DNA of 53,490 nt from a virus. The DNA lies in the IMG/VR virus record IMGVR_UViG_3300025131_000053, positions 1-53,490 of that record; one strand, given 5' to 3'. This document shows, in pieces, positions 3,287-24,162 of this stretch. How positions within the stretch are numbered: the first letter of the stretch is position 1; each line of letters opens with the position of its first letter. Both the position numbers and the translations under genes were made by a program. Under the pieces are notes generated by a model. That model was not told where the DNA came from and ran no database searches. It worked only from the letters and a program-made list of their open reading frames with translations.

Positions 3287-3294
3287 TATAAATA
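3287..3294 (+). promoter_or_regulatory. T4-like late promoter box, perfect TATAAATA
   Basis: Full TATAAATA octamer ending 5 bases before ATG 3300. Confidence 0.7.
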
Positions 3295-3299
3295 ATGTT

Positions 3300-3644
3300 A
3301 TGAGTGAATTCGATAAAGCAGCAAACGATATCTTGAGCAGGTTAGATGAAAACTTTATTAATAGCGCAGCTGACGCTATCCAGCATACATGAGCAAAGAC
3401 AATTGCACACCCAGGTCTGGGTGAAGAAGATGAAGAGTTCGCTGTTGTTGATCATAGTTTAACTAGTGATGGAGTTATTACTGAATATTATGTTAAGCAT
3501 AAAGGTAAATTAGTCGCTGTTCCAGCAGATGAAGCTAAGGTCATTGTTATTAAAGAACATGCTGAAGAGGATGAACACGGAGAGAAGCCTGAGAGAGATG
3601 ACGCTGAAGAGCTAGATTCTGACGAGGAAGAGAAAGATAAATAA
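3300..3644 (+). CDS. Late acidic protein interrupted by in-frame TGA (possible readthrough)
   Basis: From ATG 3300 the frame gives 30 codons (MSEFDKAANDILSRLDENF...), then TGA at 3390-3392, then 83 more codons ending in a Glu/Asp-rich tail and TAA at 3642. After the TGA there is no in-frame ATG, GTG or TTG, so the second part cannot be started independently in the usual way. Its composition is protein-like (GVITEYYVKHKGKLVAVPAD). The start has a perfect late box at the standard spacing. The stop overlaps the next start (TAATG), which suggests that ribosomes do reach the end. Either the TGA is read through, the gene is a recent pseudogene, or a base is wrong (TGG would give Trp). Confidence 0.55.
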
Positions 3645-3802
3645 TGAGTCGTGACGAGGCCAGATGGACTCGTACAATAATAGGACTTGGTATATTATTT
3701 TTTTGCATTAGCATAATGGCTGAATTAGCCAAACATAAGGTCGAAACCAAAAAGAGCCTCGATAGAATCGAGGCTCTCCTTATGAACGTACGCTCCGACT
3801 AA
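3644..3802 (+). CDS. 52-residue single-pass membrane protein
   Basis: MSRDEARWTRTIIGLGILFF begins a short protein with one membrane segment (about residues 11-26) and a charged C-terminal helix (KHKVETKKSLDRIEALL). The start overlaps the previous stop as TAATG, indicating translational coupling. Small size, one membrane helix and late expression would fit a lysis accessory or virion membrane protein, but no family is recognised. Its last codons contain a hairpin that terminates transcription coming from the other strand. Confidence 0.6.
   Translation: MSRDEARWTRTIIGLGILFFCISIMAELAKHKVETKKSLDRIEALLMNVRSD
3749..3777 (-). terminator. Rho-independent terminator for leftward transcription
   Basis: An 11-bp perfect stem (AGAGCCTCGAT/ATCGAGGCTCT) with a 3-base loop; on the minus strand the stem runs into five T. 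On the plus strand there is no T run. It would end transcripts from the minus-strand block starting near 6063. It lies inside the coding end of the convergent 52-residue gene. Confidence 0.65.
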
Positions 3803-11475: not shown

Positions 11476-13854
11476 ATGGGCAAAAAGATTACTCAGCTTA
11501 ATGTAGGCGTAATACCATATACTGGGACAGAAGAAGTTGCAATGGTTGACGAAGCTCAAACTCGTCGAGCATCGCTAAGTTCAATTACAAATTATCTCTC
11601 TTCTGCTAAATACTGCACCGGAAGTACAGTCGACCGTCCAATAGCTACACCCTTAGCTAATAATTTCTTTCAAGCAACTCAATCAACAGTAGGAGACTTA
11701 AGCGCATCAGGTAAGCTTGCTATGGGTACTAGTACTACTGTTGGTGGTACCTTGGCCTCAGTAGCAGGTGGAACTGGAAATAGCGCCGCTGGTGGGTGCG
11801 CGGCTGTTGCTGGTGGTGCAACTAATACTGCTAGTGCAAATAATGCACATATTGGCGGTGGTAAGGGAAATTCAGCTGGTGGTGTATGTTCTGTCATAGG
11901 CGGTGGATGTGGTAACACTACCGGTCTTGGTGGATATTCTACAGTTGGTGGTGGTGATGCAAATACTGCATCAGGAGCCGGAGCAAGTGTTTTAGGAGGG
12001 TGCGGTGGTACTGCTAGTGGTGCATGTGCTACAGTAGGCGGTGGGAAACTAAATACAGCCAGTGGGGTTATAGATACTGTTGGTGGTGGTTATTGGAATA
12101 CAGCTAACGGTAATTGTGCTACAGTAGGCGGTGGAAAACACAACCGAGCGTCAGCAGATTTTGGAACTGTAGCTGGCGGTCTTAGTGGATGCGTTTATGA
12201 AGAATATGGATTTTCTGGAGGTGGATTTGATAACTGTGCTAGTGCTAAGTATTCAGCTGTTGTAGGTGGCGGTAAAAATACTGCTTCAGGTTTAAGTGCA
12301 TTTGTTGGTGGTGGATGTGGGAATACAGCTAACGGAAATAACGCTTCGGCAGTGGTTGGCGGAATGGCTAATACAGCTTCTGGTCTAAGTGCATTCATTG
12401 GTGGCGGGCTAAGTAATACTGCTGCAGGAATAGGTAGCGTGATTGGTGGTGGTCACTCTAACGAAGCTAGTGGTACCAATGCTGCTGTTGGTGGTGGTGA
12501 TGCAAATACTGCCGGGGGTGGAACATGTGCTGTAGTCGGTGGTGGTGCTGGAAATGCTGCAGCTGGGAACAGTGCTACTATAGCCGGGGGGTATGCTAAC
12601 TCCGTCACTGGAGTTGCGGGAGCTGTTGGTGGTGGTAATACAAACCTAGCTTCCGGTGCTTGCGCTACTATAGCCGGGGGGTACAAAAACTGCGCGTGTG
12701 GAATCAGTTCAACCGTTGGTGGTGGTGATTCAAACCTAGCCAAGTGTGCAAATTCAAGTGTTTTAGGAGGTAATAGTAATTGCGCATGCGGTGATTACGC
12801 CGTAGTAGCCGGGGGGTACAAAAACGACGCAACTACAGACTTTTCTTTTGTTGGTGGTGGTTGCTGTAATAGAATCTTAACATGTGGTGATACGATTGCC
12901 GGTGGTAAGGAAAACAGATCGGCTGGTGGTTGTGCATTTATAGGAGGTGGTTTGACATTATCTGCTAACAACGTATTTGATGTTGTTGGTGGTGGATGTG
13001 GTAACCGGTCATGTTCCGATACAACATACGGCGGTTACACATTTATTGGCGGTGGTAAAGATAATACCTCGTTATGTGGTGCTGGTATAATCGTTGGTGG
13101 TAGAGGAAATCAAACTGAAGGCCCATGGGGTGTTATTGTTGGAGGTAGCACAAATTTTTCCGGAGCAAGTGCATTTGTTGGCGCTGGACACGGCAACAAA
13201 GCATGCCAAGGTGCCTTTGTTGGTGCCGGGCGCACAAACTGCGCGCTTGGAAATTGCTCTATTGTAGTTGGTGGGTGTAACAGTGTTGCACGAGGCACCT
13301 ACTCGAGTATAGTAGGTGGACACACACTATCTGCCGCCGGTAATTGTTCTTTTGTAGGCGGTGGAGAAACAAACTGCGTTGTTAATAACCACAGTTCTAT
13401 AACAAGTGGACAATGCAACGTTGTCTGTGACACCGGATCATGTGCTTCGATTGTTGGTGGTTCGAGGCATAAAGCGTGTGCTATAAATTCACACATTGGA
13501 GGAGGTGATACAAACATAATAGATGGAACTGGGCATTATGGAGTGATTGCTGGTGGGCAATACGGCTGCATTAAAGCTACTCATAGTGGTGTTGCCAGTG
13601 GTCTTCGTAATTATGTTTGTGCAGATTATGGATTTGTTGGTGGCGGTCATGATAATTCCATAAGCAATACTGCATTTACCGGTTCCAGTATCATTGGTAC
13701 AAATATAACAGCTATGTCCGGTTGTATGATGCATACAAATAGATTATGGCTTAGCGCAGATGAATGCGGATGTGGTTTACCAGTAAGTGATCCTAAAGTT
13801 GAAGGTGTAGTTTGGCGTAACGGAACTGACTTAAAGATCTCAACAGGGCCATAA
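11476..13854 (+). CDS. Giant repeat adhesin/fibre protein (15-residue GGG-N repeats)
   Basis: A 792-residue protein. The N-terminus (KKITQLNVGVIPYTGTEEVA, with A-S-L-S-S-I) is the head domain common in phage tail/fibre proteins. Residues about 85-740 consist of some 40 copies of a 15-residue unit of the form x-x-A/S-x-V/I-G-G-G-x-x-N-x-A-S-G, as in left-handed beta-roll adhesin heads. About 39 Cys are present, mostly two to three residues before the G-G-G or beside N, so they would stack in columns. The C-terminus (LPVSDPKVEGVVWRNGTDLK) is a known end motif of phage structural proteins. Expected to be a trimeric fibre on the virion. Its distance from the other fibre genes is unusual. Confidence 0.75.
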   Translation: MGKKITQLNVGVIPYTGTEEVAMVDEAQTRRASLSSITNYLSSAKYCTGSTVDRPIATPLANNFFQATQSTVGDLSASGKLAMGTSTTVGGTLASVAGGTGNSAAGGCAAVAGGATNTASANNAHIGGGKGNSAGGVCSVIGGGCGNTTGLGGYSTVGGGDANTASGAGASVLGGCGGTASGACATVGGGKLNTASGVIDTVGGGYWNTANGNCATVGGGKHNRASADFGTVAGGLSGCVYEEYGFSGGGFDNCASAKYSAVVGGGKNTASGLSAFVGGGCGNTANGNNASAVVGGMANTASGLSAFIGGGLSNTAAGIGSVIGGGHSNEASGTNAAVGGGDANTAGGGTCAVVGGGAGNAAAGNSATIAGGYANSVTGVAGAVGGGNTNLASGACATIAGGYKNCACGISSTVGGGDSNLAKCANSSVLGGNSNCACGDYAVVAGGYKNDATTDFSFVGGGCCNRILTCGDTIAGGKENRSAGGCAFIGGGLTLSANNVFDVVGGGCGNRSCSDTTYGGYTFIGGGKDNTSLCGAGIIVGGRGNQTEGPWGVIVGGSTNFSGASAFVGAGHGNKACQGAFVGAGRTNCALGNCSIVVGGCNSVARGTYSSIVGGHTLSAAGNCSFVGGGETNCVVNNHSSITSGQCNVVCDTGSCASIVGGSRHKACAINSHIGGGDTNIIDGTGHYGVIAGGQYGCIKATHSGVASGLRNYVCADYGFVGGGHDNSISNTAFTGSSIIGTNITAMSGCMMHTNRLWLSADECGCGLPVSDPKVEGVVWRNGTDLKISTGP
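11730..13680 (+). repeat. Coding tandem repeats with 45-bp period
   Basis: About 40 imperfect 45-bp units; GTTGGTGGTGGT-like cores recur through the region, some stretches (GCTACTATAGCCGGGGGGTA) are repeated exactly. This offers many sites for slippage or recombination that would change fibre length. Confidence 0.75.
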
Positions 13855-13881
13855 TAGGTATTGAATTTTACCAATTGTGCA

Positions 13882-13888
13882 ATATATA
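13882..13888 (+). promoter_or_regulatory. Variant late promoter box
   Basis: ATATATA, 6 bases before ATG 13895; differs from the consensus at one position. Confidence 0.4.
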
Positions 13889-13894
13889 CAATGT

Positions 13895-14794
13895 ATGGCT
13901 ACTACCGTATTTCACATTGAAGGAGGCATTGGTAAAAACATTGCTGCGACAGCTGTTACAGCTGCATATAAAAAAGCTAATCCAAAGCGAAAACTTATTG
14001 TCGTTTCAGCTTGGCCTGAAGTGTGGGTTAAAAATAAAGACATAGCAAGATTTTATAGAATCGGTAACACTCCTTATTTTTATCAAGATGTTATTAAGGG
14101 TAAGGATGTAAAATTATTTGCGCAAGATCCATACAGACAAACTAACCACATCACAAAGAAAACGCATCTAATTGAAACATGGTGTGATATGGTTGGTGTA
14201 AAGTTTAATAATGAAGACCCTGTAATAAATTTTAATTTTAGAGAAATTGAAGAAGCTCGGACTTATATGAATGATTTTAGTGACGGTAAAAGACCGATGA
14301 TGGTATTTCAACCGTTTGGAGGGCCGGGGAAGGACCACCAGCAACACCCTTACTCCTGGACTAGAGATATACATCCGGCTCAAGCACAAGAAATTGTCAA
14401 TGGCTTAGCAGATAAATTTAATATTGTACATATATGTTATGAGTTTCATCCTAAGTTAGACAACTGTCACCGGTTTGAGAGAACGATTGGAAAGAAGCCA
14501 TTGTTTGCAATGATTGCTCATGCTGACAAAAGGCTGTTTATTGATTCTTCTTTACAACACGCCGCTGTTCCTCTAAAGTTGCCTTCTGTTGTAGTGTGGG
14601 TTAACACACAGCCAAAGGTTTTTGGATACGATATGCATACAAATATTGTACCTAATGTCAAGCGTGATGAAGGTACAATTGATTCATACCTCTATGATTA
14701 TGATTTTCAGGGGGTGATTCATCAATGCCCGTACGACAACATAGACGAGTTACACAATGTACCGGGTATAATTCAAGCTGTCTTAGATCAATAG
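13895..14794 (+). CDS. GT9-like glycosyltransferase (heptosyltransferase family)
   Basis: 299 residues from ATG 13895, chosen over the in-frame GTG at 13877 because it follows the box with normal spacing. The N-terminus FHIEGGIGKNIAATAVTAAY, then KRKLIVVSAWPEVWVKN and IARFYRIG, is the layout of family 9 glycosyltransferases (G-I-G-D-x-L-x-x-T-P...). The second half has MMVFQPFGGPG (the H-P-G-like donor loop), FNIVHICYEF and ADKRLFIDSSLQHAAVPLKLP, the usual 'future target... D-S-g-x-x-H-x-a' donor site. It probably adds a sugar to a phage structural protein or to host LPS. Stop overlaps the convergent gene by 7 bases. Confidence 0.6.
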   Translation: MATTVFHIEGGIGKNIAATAVTAAYKKANPKRKLIVVSAWPEVWVKNKDIARFYRIGNTPYFYQDVIKGKDVKLFAQDPYRQTNHITKKTHLIETWCDMVGVKFNNEDPVINFNFREIEEARTYMNDFSDGKRPMMVFQPFGGPGKDHQQHPYSWTRDIHPAQAQEIVNGLADKFNIVHICYEFHPKLDNCHRFERTIGKKPLFAMIAHADKRLFIDSSLQHAAVPLKLPSVVVWVNTQPKVFGYDMHTNIVPNVKRDEGTIDSYLYDYDFQGVIHQCPYDNIDELHNVPGIIQAVLDQ

Positions 14795-15609
14795 TAAGAG
14801 CCGTATATATCTGTATCATTGACATCCATATCCATTACTTGGGTCTTAGAGTTGTCTCCAATATCATACGGATCATTTGCATTCGCGTACTGCTTCCCGT
14901 CCGACGCTTCCTGACCAAAGAGATCTGTAGACAGTATGCCACTAGCAGTGCTATCATAGATTTGCTCATTGACCGGCTCGCTAGACAATCCGCTTTCGAA
15001 AGAGTAGTTAAATCTCTTACCTCTAAGCCTATAGACATAATGTCCAAGTAGTGGGTTTAAGGTAGAAAGATCTTGATCCATTCGCTCAGTTATTTGAAAC
15101 ATAACTGAGCCTCTCTGATTTGGTCTATCACAACCTAGAACCTTTAAGTCGATTACATCGCCTGCTTTAGGCTCAGGTGATTGCGCAACAGCAGAATAGT
15201 CGAAGTATGCTGATGCTGTAGATTGGAATGTACTTATATGAACAAATGCTGTAAACTCGTCATCCGGATCAAATCCAAACTTAGATAAATTTACCGCATC
15301 GTCGGATAGCTCGACATACATTTGCATTCCGGAAAGAGGACCATGAAACTGTTTCCTATCAGTGGTATTGCCGAAATCTTCACCATACAGAAGATCAGCT
15401 GCTGAAAGATTAAAGGTGTTTATGTAATATTCTACAGGAATACCAAAATTATTAATTAGGTCGTTATAAGCCTGATCAAAGACTAATTGTTCCGCTTGTA
15501 GGTTATTTGGATTAACTAATTGCCCACAGGTTGGAATAGCTGTTGCAGCTAAAACATCTGCTGGGAGACAGTTTAGTCGATTATTACTACATGGAGGTGA
15601 ATCCGGCAT
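14788..15609 (-). CDS. gp14: gp14-like neck protein
   Basis: 273 residues, close to T4 gp14 (256). The order of motifs matches what I recall of the family: FGIPVEYYIN, then DLLYGEDFGNTTDRKQFHGP, an MYVELSDDAVNLSKFGFDPDDEFTAFVH segment, PKAGDVIDL, VMFQITERM, and GHYVYRLRGKRFNYSFES. In T4, gp13/gp14 close the portal after packaging so that the tail can join. Here the gene is on the strand opposite to terminase and tail genes and follows a nucleotidyltransferase gene after 1 base, so it is expressed from the promoters at 16651 or further upstream. Confidence 0.65.
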   Translation of the reverse strand: MPDSPPCSNNRLNCLPADVLAATAIPTCGQLVNPNNLQAEQLVFDQAYNDLINNFGIPVEYYINTFNLSAADLLYGEDFGNTTDRKQFHGPLSGMQMYVELSDDAVNLSKFGFDPDDEFTAFVHISTFQSTASAYFDYSAVAQSPEPKAGDVIDLKVLGCDRPNQRGSVMFQITERMDQDLSTLNPLLGHYVYRLRGKRFNYSFESGLSSEPVNEQIYDSTASGILSTDLFGQEASDGKQYANANDPYDIGDNSKTQVMDMDVNDTDIYGSYY

Positions 15610-15610
15610 C

Positions 15611-16645
15611 TTACTTCTTTCTTAACATTCCACATGGGGTTCCTTCATTATCCTCAAACATTTCTACTTCAACACCAGAGTTACCGAGGCCGTTTGTTAC
15701 TCCGGGTTTGTAATCTACATCATACTCAGCTAGTGTATTTAACAGAGGCTGTCCCATTAATTTTATTTGATGAGCGGATCCGTTTACTAAGTTACTTACA
15801 TGCGGGCATTTGTGATTATGCTTTTTAGGTAACGTATTTAAATGCTTTTTTGTTAGGCCTACTCTGTTAGGATCTTTACCATTACGCATTTTAGGGTTCA
15901 TGATAGGGTCACCCTGGTAGTATTCGAAAAATGTCTTAAAGTTTTCCGTATAAATGCTATCATAAGATGCAGAAATTATATCTATTAAATCACCAATAGC
16001 TTCTGTGTTTCGAAGTACCTTAAAAGCTAAATTCTCGATACTAAATTCGCCTTCACGTGCTAGTCCACGTTTACGCATTTTAGATATTTTCTCTTTTAAC
16101 CGGTTCGCCTTTTCATGTAACTCTTTAGCGTCCGGTCCTTTGGCTGTTGAGATTTTTTCCTTTAATATTTGGATGTCGGTTTCAATCGCCCTAGCTTTTT
16201 TAAATACGTCATTAATGTCAATTGAAGGCGGGTCATACGATGGTTCAGTAATCCATTTATCATCTTTTAGCGAATAGAGACCGGAAGCTACATGCGGCTC
16301 ATCTTTGTCTTGCATGTACATTTCAACATCATGCCCTCTAAGGTTTACGTTATGTCTAAGATTCCACACAAAGCGAGGCCCGTCTAATGCCTTCTTTACC
16401 AATTTTTCATCTTCATTAATATCCTTAAAGTCAATCAGTACATGAACATCTAAGTCAGAATATTCATTGTAATTGTAATTGCTGTTACTACCAGTAAGAG
16501 TAATATCATATATTTCCACCCCTTGCAGATCTAAATTATCGATAAAATCATCGGTTATAGACAAAAGCTTTTCTCTTATATCTGGGTCAAATTTTTTATC
16601 CTCAGACCAAAATTTTTGATTTAAAGTTTCGTTGTAGAACCTCAC
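15611..16645 (-). CDS. Pol-beta-fold nucleotidyltransferase
   Basis: 344 residues from GTG 16645. Longer reading to TTG 16684 is rejected because it would run through a terminator, whereas the GTG sits 5 bases after an ATAAATA box. The active site is clear: LTGSNSNYNYNEYSDLDVHV near residues 50-69 is the G-S-x(10-12)-D-x-D motif of the DNA polymerase beta superfamily, followed by a third Asp in HDVEMYM near 106. The middle is a charged coiled coil (about 145-190). Similar proteins are encoded by other T4-like marine phages; substrate unknown (nucleotidylation of protein, RNA or a small molecule). Confidence 0.75.
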   Translation of the reverse strand: MRFYNETLNQKFWSEDKKFDPDIREKLLSITDDFIDNLDLQGVEIYDITLTGSNSNYNYNEYSDLDVHVLIDFKDINEDEKLVKKALDGPRFVWNLRHNVNLRGHDVEMYMQDKDEPHVASGLYSLKDDKWITEPSYDPPSIDINDVFKKARAIETDIQILKEKISTAKGPDAKELHEKANRLKEKISKMRKRGLAREGEFSIENLAFKVLRNTEAIGDLIDIISASYDSIYTENFKTFFEYYQGDPIMNPKMRNGKDPNRVGLTKKHLNTLPKKHNHKCPHVSNLVNGSAHQIKLMGQPLLNTLAEYDVDYKPGVTNGLGNSGVEVEMFEDNEGTPCGMLRKK

Positions 16646-19516: not shown

Positions 19517-20104
19517 ATGGCATACAACACCATGCAGCAGTCGGTGCTCAATAAATCAAGAGCTGATAAGTTCTTGCTTGTTTTTGATATACCGCCTATA
19601 TTAAAAGAGTTTGATAAAAAATTTAAACAGAGCAATACTACAATTGTTAGTGACTCAGTTCAATTTTCTATTTTTGGGACCGCGGTCCCTGAAATAACCG
19701 TACCAGCAGTAGAAAATAGATATGCAGGTAATACTCTTTATGTATCTTCTCATAGTAAAAACTCGTACCCACCAGTAAGTGTTAAATTTAATGTTGACAA
19801 TGAATATAAAAACTACTGGGTAATTTATCAATGGCTTAACCTACTCCATGATCAATATGATGGAAGGTATAATGCTCGGGAGATAAATTCGAACGATCCG
19901 GATGAAAATTTTAAAGATTACCAAACAAATTTAACTATTTTTGGTAAGGATGAATTTAATAATAGTAGGATAAAGTTCACTTATACAAAAGCATTTCCCA
20001 CTACTATTGACACAATAGATTATAATTATCAAAATCCGGATGAAATTTCTTCTGGCTTTACCTTTGTCTATTCACAATTACACACTGAAGTTATGGATTT
20101 TTGA
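19517..20104 (+). CDS. Tail-tube-like protein (gp19 family), paralogue 1
   Basis: 195 residues. RADKFLLVFDIPPILK at the start, then FSIFGTAVPEITVPAVENRYAGNTLYVSS, VSVKFNVDNEYKNYWVIYQW and a final GFTFVYSQLHTEVMDF give the beta pattern of gp19-type tube proteins and their baseplate relatives. Unlike T4, it lies between terminase and sheath, and two more relatives follow the sheath. It may be the main tube, a tube-tip or a terminator protein; order alone does not decide. Confidence 0.6.
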   Translation: MAYNTMQQSVLNKSRADKFLLVFDIPPILKEFDKKFKQSNTTIVSDSVQFSIFGTAVPEITVPAVENRYAGNTLYVSSHSKNSYPPVSVKFNVDNEYKNYWVIYQWLNLLHDQYDGRYNAREINSNDPDENFKDYQTNLTIFGKDEFNNSRIKFTYTKAFPTTIDTIDYNYQNPDEISSGFTFVYSQLHTEVMDF

Positions 20105-22980: not shown

Positions 22981-23517
22981 ATGGCAACAACTATTCAGAA
23001 CTTCTTTACCAGAGCTGCATCGAAGCAATTTTCTCGAGATTTTCTATTTCGAGTAAGGCAAATAGACTTAATAGGAGGTATTAGGTTTGATGGAGAGGAT
23101 GACCTGGTTTATGCTAGGACAGCATCTTTACCTGGCAGAAACATTGACAACGTTAATGTTAATTACTTTGGACAAGAGTTCCAAGTACCGGGCAGAGCAA
23201 CATATGCTAACGCTGCTGGTTATTCAATTGAATTCTATCATGATGAAAATTGTGAGCTTCGAACAAAAATGGAAGCTGCTTCAAGAGCAGTGTTTAATAA
23301 TGAAACATCCACCGGTGCATATGGTATGCCCGGAGAAGAGTCAATAATTAACTTAGTACAAATAGATAAAAACTTAAACGATGTTAGAAACATCGAACTA
23401 GTTGGTGCATCAATTAGAGAAATTGGTGACATTGAGTATTCTATTGCTGATGGTACTGGCGATGTATTAAACTTCTCTACTACATTTGCCTACCACTTCT
23501 ATAGAGACTTTAGTTAG
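22981..23517 (+). CDS. gp19: Tail tube protein (gp19-like), paralogue 2
   Basis: 178 residues, near T4 gp19 (163). FSRDFLFRVRQIDLIGG, then YARTASLPGRNIDNVNVNYFGQEFQVPGRATY and YSIEFYHDENCELRTKMEAA follow the gp19 tube fold (R-x-P-x-R..., then a helix and closing strand), and it directly follows the sheath gene as in T4. This copy is the best candidate for the main tube subunit. Confidence 0.75.
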   Translation: MATTIQNFFTRAASKQFSRDFLFRVRQIDLIGGIRFDGEDDLVYARTASLPGRNIDNVNVNYFGQEFQVPGRATYANAAGYSIEFYHDENCELRTKMEAASRAVFNNETSTGAYGMPGEESIINLVQIDKNLNDVRNIELVGASIREIGDIEYSIADGTGDVLNFSTTFAYHFYRDFS

Positions 23518-23553: not shown

Positions 23554-24162
23554 ATGGCTGGTGAAGTATACGATTTTCTTAGCAACTATAGCGTTGGAGG
23601 ACCCTCAAGATATTACCTCTCGCTTCCTACTCTTTGGAAGATAGAATTTTCTAATGCTGGTTCTGTGAGAGGTCAAGTCGACCAAGCATTAGAAAAGGCT
23701 GGTGAAAGCTGGAGAGTAAAAAACATACCTGAAGAGTTTGTATCAAATGGCAATACGTTAGTCGCCCGTGAAGTCGCAGTTCCGGGCGAGACGACAGAAT
23801 TTTTAGAAGCAGGTGCAGATATAAACTTAGGCGGCTTTTTACCTGCTTATGGTGTTAATCGCCGGCAAGGATTTTTAACTAGGACGTTAGCTGTAAATAT
23901 TTTTGATACAGATGATGACTTAGAGCATAATTTCTTTAGACCGTGGATGATAGCAGTTGGTATTGATGGTTTGCTTAATAGAGGTTTGCTTTGTCCTAAT
24001 GTAGTTTTAAGGCAATATAACCATAAAGGGGAAATACGTAAAGGATATAACTTTACAGATGTATTCCCTACTAACGTTGAAGGGTATACAATTGATTACG
24101 ATAATGAAACATTTCTTGAAAAAAGCGTAACTTTTGCATTTAAGAATTACGCCCCTATATAA
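23554..24162 (+). CDS. Tail-tube-like protein, paralogue 3 (possible gp54-type tube initiator)
   Basis: 202 residues. LVAREVAVPGETTEFLEAGA, then a loop and LAVNIFDTDDDLEHNFFRPW and YTIDYDNETFLEKSVTFAFK keep the tube-family strand-helix-strand order. FRPWMIAVGIDGL in the helix-loop is typical of baseplate-proximal tube proteins. Located between the tube and hub assembly genes, so it could be the gp54-like protein joining tube and baseplate. This is inference from order and fold. Confidence 0.6.
   Translation: MAGEVYDFLSNYSVGGPSRYYLSLPTLWKIEFSNAGSVRGQVDQALEKAGESWRVKNIPEEFVSNGNTLVAREVAVPGETTEFLEAGADINLGGFLPAYGVNRRQGFLTRTLAVNIFDTDDDLEHNFFRPWMIAVGIDGLLNRGLLCPNVVLRQYNHKGEIRKGYNFTDVFPTNVEGYTIDYDNETFLEKSVTFAFKNYAPI

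Follow-up and report, generated by a model that had tools for sequence, protein, structure and literature searches.

Cells and a few eukaryotic viruses are known to insert selenocysteine (Sec). In the A1 gene of phage Qbeta a UGA inside the phage gene is read through by a near-cognate tRNA, with neither a SECIS nor Cys homologues. Bacterial genes of the bSECIS type, for example E. coli fdhF and FdhA of the Verrucomicrobiales, have an in-frame UGA, a hairpin 17-21 nt further on and a loop of the GGUC type; they have Cys homologues and belong to bacterial lineages with SelB and tRNA-Sec. The open-access literature yielded tRNA-Sec genes in Basilisk-like Bacillus phages, where no selenoprotein is described (PMC6145125), and no phage selenoprotein. 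A 2026 review of prokaryotic selenoproteomes mentions neither phages nor viruses.

The gene presented here very probably encodes a phage selenoprotein, in which UGA would be decoded as Sec by means of a SECIS hairpin and the host SelB. As far as was found in the open-access literature searched, no bacteriophage had been reported to carry a selenoprotein gene before, so that this would be the first. It resembles the bSECIS genes in the in-frame UGA, the hairpin with its loop and the Cys homologues, and its likely hosts come from a bacterial lineage with SelB and tRNA-Sec. Unlike them, it is borne by a phage, stands outside the known selenoprotein families and the recognised redox enzymes, and has no C-x-x-U motif. 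The Basilisk-like phages likewise carry a component of the Sec system, but there it is tRNA-Sec with no selenoprotein, while here it is a candidate selenoprotein gene with no tRNA-Sec. The likeness to Qbeta A1 is the UGA inside a phage gene; the two differ in the points given for A1.

Gene layout and conservation of the UGA

The gene is located in a window of 53,490 bases (the whole stretch of DNA analysed), which is an IMG/VR virus record. Its terminase, sheath and tail-tube genes are remotely T4-like, so that the source of the window, a marine virus, is taken to be a T4-like phage distant from the isolated ones. The features of the locus are presented in Table 1. Elsewhere in the window, three phrog_45 tail-tube-like genes are found around the sheath gene (19517-20104, 22981-23517 and 23554-24162), and the minus strand of this T4-like phage encodes, at 542-1744, a protein that has a CAP domain (PF00188) and a signal-like N-terminus.

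Table 1. Features of the UGA-containing gene and its surroundings (positions in the window)
Feature	Position	Strand	Remarks
Late-promoter-like box TATAAATA	3288..3295	+	4 nt before ATG
Whole recoded gene	3300..3644	+	114 residues with UGA as Sec at residue 31
N-terminal 30 codons	3300..3389	+	kept within window branch; mostly different in L022/L023
In-frame UGA at residue 31, proposed to encode selenocysteine	3390..3392	+	TGA in 12/12 relatives; Cys in 14/14 sampled cyanophage homologues
Post-UGA coding region	3393..3641	+	about 55-residue predicted SH3-like barrel, then acidic tail
SECIS-like hairpin CACCCA-GGUC-UGGGUG	3408..3423	+	loop GGUC 3414-3417, 21 nt after UGA
Overlapping downstream ORF (TAATG)	3644..3802	+	52-aa putative membrane protein

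The translation of 3300-3644 reads MSEFDKAANDILSRLDENFINSAADAIQHT*AKTIAHPGLGEEDEEF...EEEKDK*, where the first asterisk is the TGA and the second the TAA at 3642-3644. An earlier sequence-only reading had described an ATG at 3300, 30 codons, the TGA, and then 83 codons in the same frame free of ATG, GTG and TTG. The translation and the ORF list of the window confirm this arrangement, and the TAATG overlap with the next start is found as described. The second part could be translated separately, through a non-AUG start or coupled reinitiation, to give two proteins; ATT and CTG codons do occur early in it, and translational coupling is common in phages. However, the second part of the window gene offers none of the three usual start codons, and the HxU-A motif across the UGA is shared with the Cys homologues, where it belongs to one continuous protein. 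A separate restart is therefore considered very unlikely.

The same reading had called the gene late, and a late-type promoter box is indeed present directly upstream (Table 1). The NATAAATA box precedes the UGA gene in 11 of 11 sequences. In the window it stands 12-16 nt before the start in 11 of 42 tested genes, many of them structural, and 8 nt before it in two more. This box suggests late expression of the UGA gene. If the boxes are late promoters of the T4 type, with the box at -13 to -6, the late mRNAs would be nearly leaderless. Boxes at 12-16 nt are seen, for example, before the starts at 19517, 20137, 24947, 25717, 27651 and 39543.

Relatives of the gene were found in 12 IMG/VR contigs, all with a TGA in the same place and with both flanks in frame. 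In the gene itself two of them are identical to the window. Eight more fall in the window branch, with 84% to about 70% identity in the best post-UGA segment, and the other two, L022 and L023, make up a distant branch. A final pattern scan for extra contigs with the UGA gene returned the known contigs only, and when the divergent relative L085 was searched by way of neighbouring genes, no UGA gene with a hairpin turned up. By itself an open stretch of 83 codons could be due to chance; the in-frame conservation of both flanks in 12 relatives rules this out. For nine window-branch sequences, the pooled pN/pS is 0.18 upstream and 0.20 downstream of the UGA, the codon changes on both sides are mostly silent, and the other two frames contain 2 to 12 stops in their first 51 codons. 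It is important to note that the post-UGA module is the conserved part of the protein. The N-terminal part mostly differs between the branches, and what it has in common in both is I[QE]Hx just before the UGA.

These data bear on two further explanations. In an IMG/VR virus record such as the window one might suspect a pseudogene or an error of sequencing or assembly, with nothing that points to this site in particular. Against it, 12 contigs with listings of their own have the identical TGA, and in ten of these the gene has diverged from that of the window; purifying selection acts on both sides of the codon. This explanation is so improbable as to be negligible, and the recent TGG-to-TGA mutation, which the sequence-only reading had placed beside an error as the main alternative, is refuted by the relatives. 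Alternatively, UGA might be generally reassigned as sense by the phage or the host (for example, code 4 or 25), which would agree with a UGA read as sense in the recoded gene. However, under table 11 no long gene is interrupted, and no suppressor tRNA was found. A screen for conserved TGAs leaves only the UGA gene, with antisense readings of long ORFs and a dUTPase upstream region set aside. Since no other gene of these phages has a conserved in-frame TGA, the code is not reassigned, and this explanation is given almost no weight.

The SECIS-like hairpin

In the window branch the hairpin begins 15 nt past the UGA. In the distant branch the protein sequence and the stem are both different, the hairpin is GCACC-GGUC-GGUGC, and its loop follows the UGA after 17 nt. 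The shift of the loop from 21 to 17 nt also places it in a different codon phase. The loop GGUC is nevertheless retained in every sequence, despite stems of CACCCA/UGGGUG in one branch and GCACC/GGUGC in the other. In a covariation test 100% of the cells were paired and three of five pairs were altered on both sides, while slid controls gave 0; only four distinct rows entered the test, so the shuffle control is modest.

With the protein fixed, the probability that random synonymous recoding creates such a hairpin is about 0.006 for one branch and 0.005 for the other. Five of the six hairpin codons are invariant in nine sequences of the window branch, while 31 of 46 other codons for invariant residues vary (Fisher p = 0.026). 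The rare Leu codon CTG, which accounts for 20 of 481 Leu codons, is invariant within the hairpin. A scan for such hairpins took in 811 candidate TGAs over 613 kb of sequence from these phages; it recovered the UGA gene in each genome and one chance-like match besides. Single-sequence folding z-scores of the hairpin region were mostly unremarkable, and an Rfam scan of the region gave chance-level snoRNA-like matches only.

It is important to compare this hairpin with the published bSECIS model, which has a loop of 3-9 nt with G in the first two loop positions, a stem of 4-16 bp, a UGA-to-loop distance of 16-37 nt and an MFE at or below -7.5 kcal/mol (PMC13188914, Fig. 2A). The loop (GGUC, 4 nt), the stems (5-7 bp) and the spacing (21 or 17 nt) agree with the model in 11 of 11 sequences, and the in-frame UGA has coding conservation on both sides. 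Folded with context, 10 of the 11 reach -9.5 to -11.8; L009 is short of the energy limit, at -5.3 for the hairpin alone and -6.9 with context. The bulged U in the upper stem, of the E. coli type, is absent from the window branch, whose stem is an uninterrupted 6 bp. The E. coli fdhF gene, taken as a control, has GCA[GGUC]UGC 18 nt after its UGA, while the loop of E. coli fdnG and fdoG is different (AGUCU region). On these grounds the hairpin largely fits the bacterial SECIS model.

Predicted fold and homologues with cysteine

The AlphaFold2 model was built with Cys in place of the UGA. In this model the post-UGA part forms a small five-stranded barrel (mean pLDDT 61.5, with block means of 71-82 for residues 31-80), and the protein is probably an SH3-like barrel. 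A search of PDB folds gave weak SH3/Tudor/KOW-type barrels only (Z about 5). This fold is common, so the function was not read from the PDB matches. Foldseek against viral models placed T4-like cyanophage proteins named 'cytitidyltransferase' at the top (best E = 9.6e-4). One of these is the P-SSM7 protein ADO98915.1 (PSSM7_192) of 133 residues, whose sequence includes SHDCASKVKHEEYGVGE... and ...SHDCASKVKHEEYGVGECMKEMHDLDENGNVAHYDVLFSHGIEKNVPVENLEIVKEGVHEH. The domain is carried by 269 cyanophage records, its members including phrog_22379, phrog_11470 and phrog_764.

In 14 of 14 sampled cyanophage sequences the Cys is invariant, as are the HxC motif and two more His residues. Residues H29, U31, H52 and H87 of the UGA family correspond to H62, C64, H83 and H119 of the cyanophage family. 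The two families are thus alike in the predicted fold, in H-x-[C/U] and in the register of the two further His residues. They differ in that the cyanophage domain has Cys in place of the proposed Sec, is usually part of larger proteins, and belongs to phages of Synechococcus and Prochlorococcus.

The first family-to-family alignment had U written as C, and hence two tests with the position masked were performed. In hhalign, the UGA family aligned with the Cys family at E = 0.001, and at 0.013 in the same register when the UGA was masked as X; one of 20 column-shuffled control profiles scored better (0.0044). An HMM of the Cys family only was searched through 7,762 six-frame ORFs in which TGA was written as X. 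The nine top non-self ranks all went to copies of the UGA gene, with E from 0.003 (best) to 0.7 and in register with the Cys. The register and this ranking support remote homology to the Cys family, and with it an exchange of Cys and Sec at the UGA site. The homologues were reached through structure: Pfam and PHROGs gave nothing significant for the post-UGA domain, and tblastn of the domain against phage records gave nothing useful. The domain profile of the UGA family had no match in bacterial and archaeal genomes, nor did the Cys-family profile in four host-lineage MAGs, the latter being an uncontrolled negative.

The sequence-only reading had proposed to look for homologues in related phages and to count a sense codon there against recoding. 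The close relatives all have TGA (12 of 12). The distant cyanophage homologues do have a sense codon, but it is Cys, which supports Sec rather than refuting the recoding.

The same reading had taken the arrangement for readthrough in which, as in Qbeta, a minor form of the protein is extended at its C-terminus. Its first part holds, as the UGA is genuine and conserved and has to be decoded, but Sec is more likely than a leaky mechanism. If a near-cognate tRNA (Trp or other) read the codon at some frequency, aided by the hairpin, this would account for a conserved in-frame UGA followed by a hairpin and for constraint on both products. However, the loop GGUC itself is retained, not just the stem, and it is the same as in known SECIS elements and in those of the likely hosts. 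The homologues have Cys and not Trp or variable residues, and the supposed short form is mostly unconserved between the branches while the post-UGA module is conserved. Together with the SECIS-type hairpin and likely hosts that decode UGA as Sec (see below), this speaks against a minor extended form, and readthrough of the Qbeta kind is regarded as improbable. Decoding of the UGA as Sec is the preferred reading.

Likely hosts, proposed mechanism and meaning

In the distant branch, a protein of 490 residues is encoded directly downstream of the UGA gene. Over its length it shares 64-67% identity with proteins encoded in four MAGs of marine Verrucomicrobiales, and the genes for these proteins adjoin a CtaA-like gene that reads as heme A synthase. 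This neighbour indicates that the MAG homologue is located on a bacterial chromosome. DUF1501 genes occur in phages of both branches, and PSCyt2/PSD1 in the longest relative. The gene content points to marine Verrucomicrobiales as hosts, on the basis of shared genes and most strongly for the distant branch. In these T4-like phages the bacterial genes for PSCyt2/PSD1 and DUF1501 are at L063:10734-13806 and in L162, L163 and L164.

With curated cut-offs, SelB was found in two and tRNA-Sec in two of the four MAGs, whose completeness is not stated. FdhA with one in-frame TGA is present in one of the four, and SelW-like genes with two in-frame TGAs in two. The SECIS of the Verrucomicrobiales FdhA is UGA + 18 nt + GUCGCC[GGUCU]GGCGGC, and its loop is closed by C-G pairs, as in the hairpin of the distant branch. 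The SelW-like (Rdx) genes (L155 about 300-430; L156, minus strand; L157 about 1500-1600) have two in-frame UGAs (YUGMUNYK, YUGVUNYK), a U-x-x-U motif and a conserved hairpin after the second UGA.

In the family of the host lineage SelB is over the cut-off in 38 of 75 genomes, while none was over it in the control cyanobacterium; the cyanophage hosts appear to have no SelB. This distribution fits with Cys in the cyanophages and Sec in the window phages. Most of the phage records are fragments; neither tRNA-Sec nor SelB was over the cut-off in them, so that Sec insertion would rely on the host. As a host marker, the tmRNA of a long relative of 196,877 bp (L063:15777-16193, minus strand; tag AANKVVDFVLPQAEPQFALAA) matched at the conserved ends only and was uninformative. 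Near-identical gene pairs resembling ribonucleotide reductase subunits were seen at L063:3999-6634 and at L072 about 13362-15994; such pairs near both ends of the 196,877-bp record are possibly a duplication or a terminal repeat.

From the established bacterial Sec pathway we infer the following mechanism. Ribosomes on the late mRNA would reach the UGA at codon 31, where the hairpin, acting as a bacterial SECIS, would recruit the host SelB-GTP-Sec-tRNA-Sec complex. The UGA would be read as selenocysteine and translation would go on for 83 codons; some ribosomes would presumably stop, leaving a peptide of 30 residues. The Sec would be placed at the start of the predicted SH3-like barrel, within the invariant H-x-U...H...H set. 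This conservation suggests, as a guess, that the Sec and the three His residues form a metal or redox site. A fuller proposal is held with about even confidence: the protein would represent a new family of selenoproteins, the first to come from bacteriophages, and would be expressed late, possibly be present in the particle and have such a site.

A phage selenoprotein would show that bacterial viruses use the host Sec machinery for proteins of their own, and that viral lineages exchange Sec and Cys depending on what the host is capable of. The need for host SelB and selenium would, if this is true, tie the phage to hosts that use Sec. Because gene callers end a gene at UGAs of this kind, further phage selenoproteins may be hidden, and the screen for Cys/Sec exchange together with a hairpin could be applied to all viral contigs.
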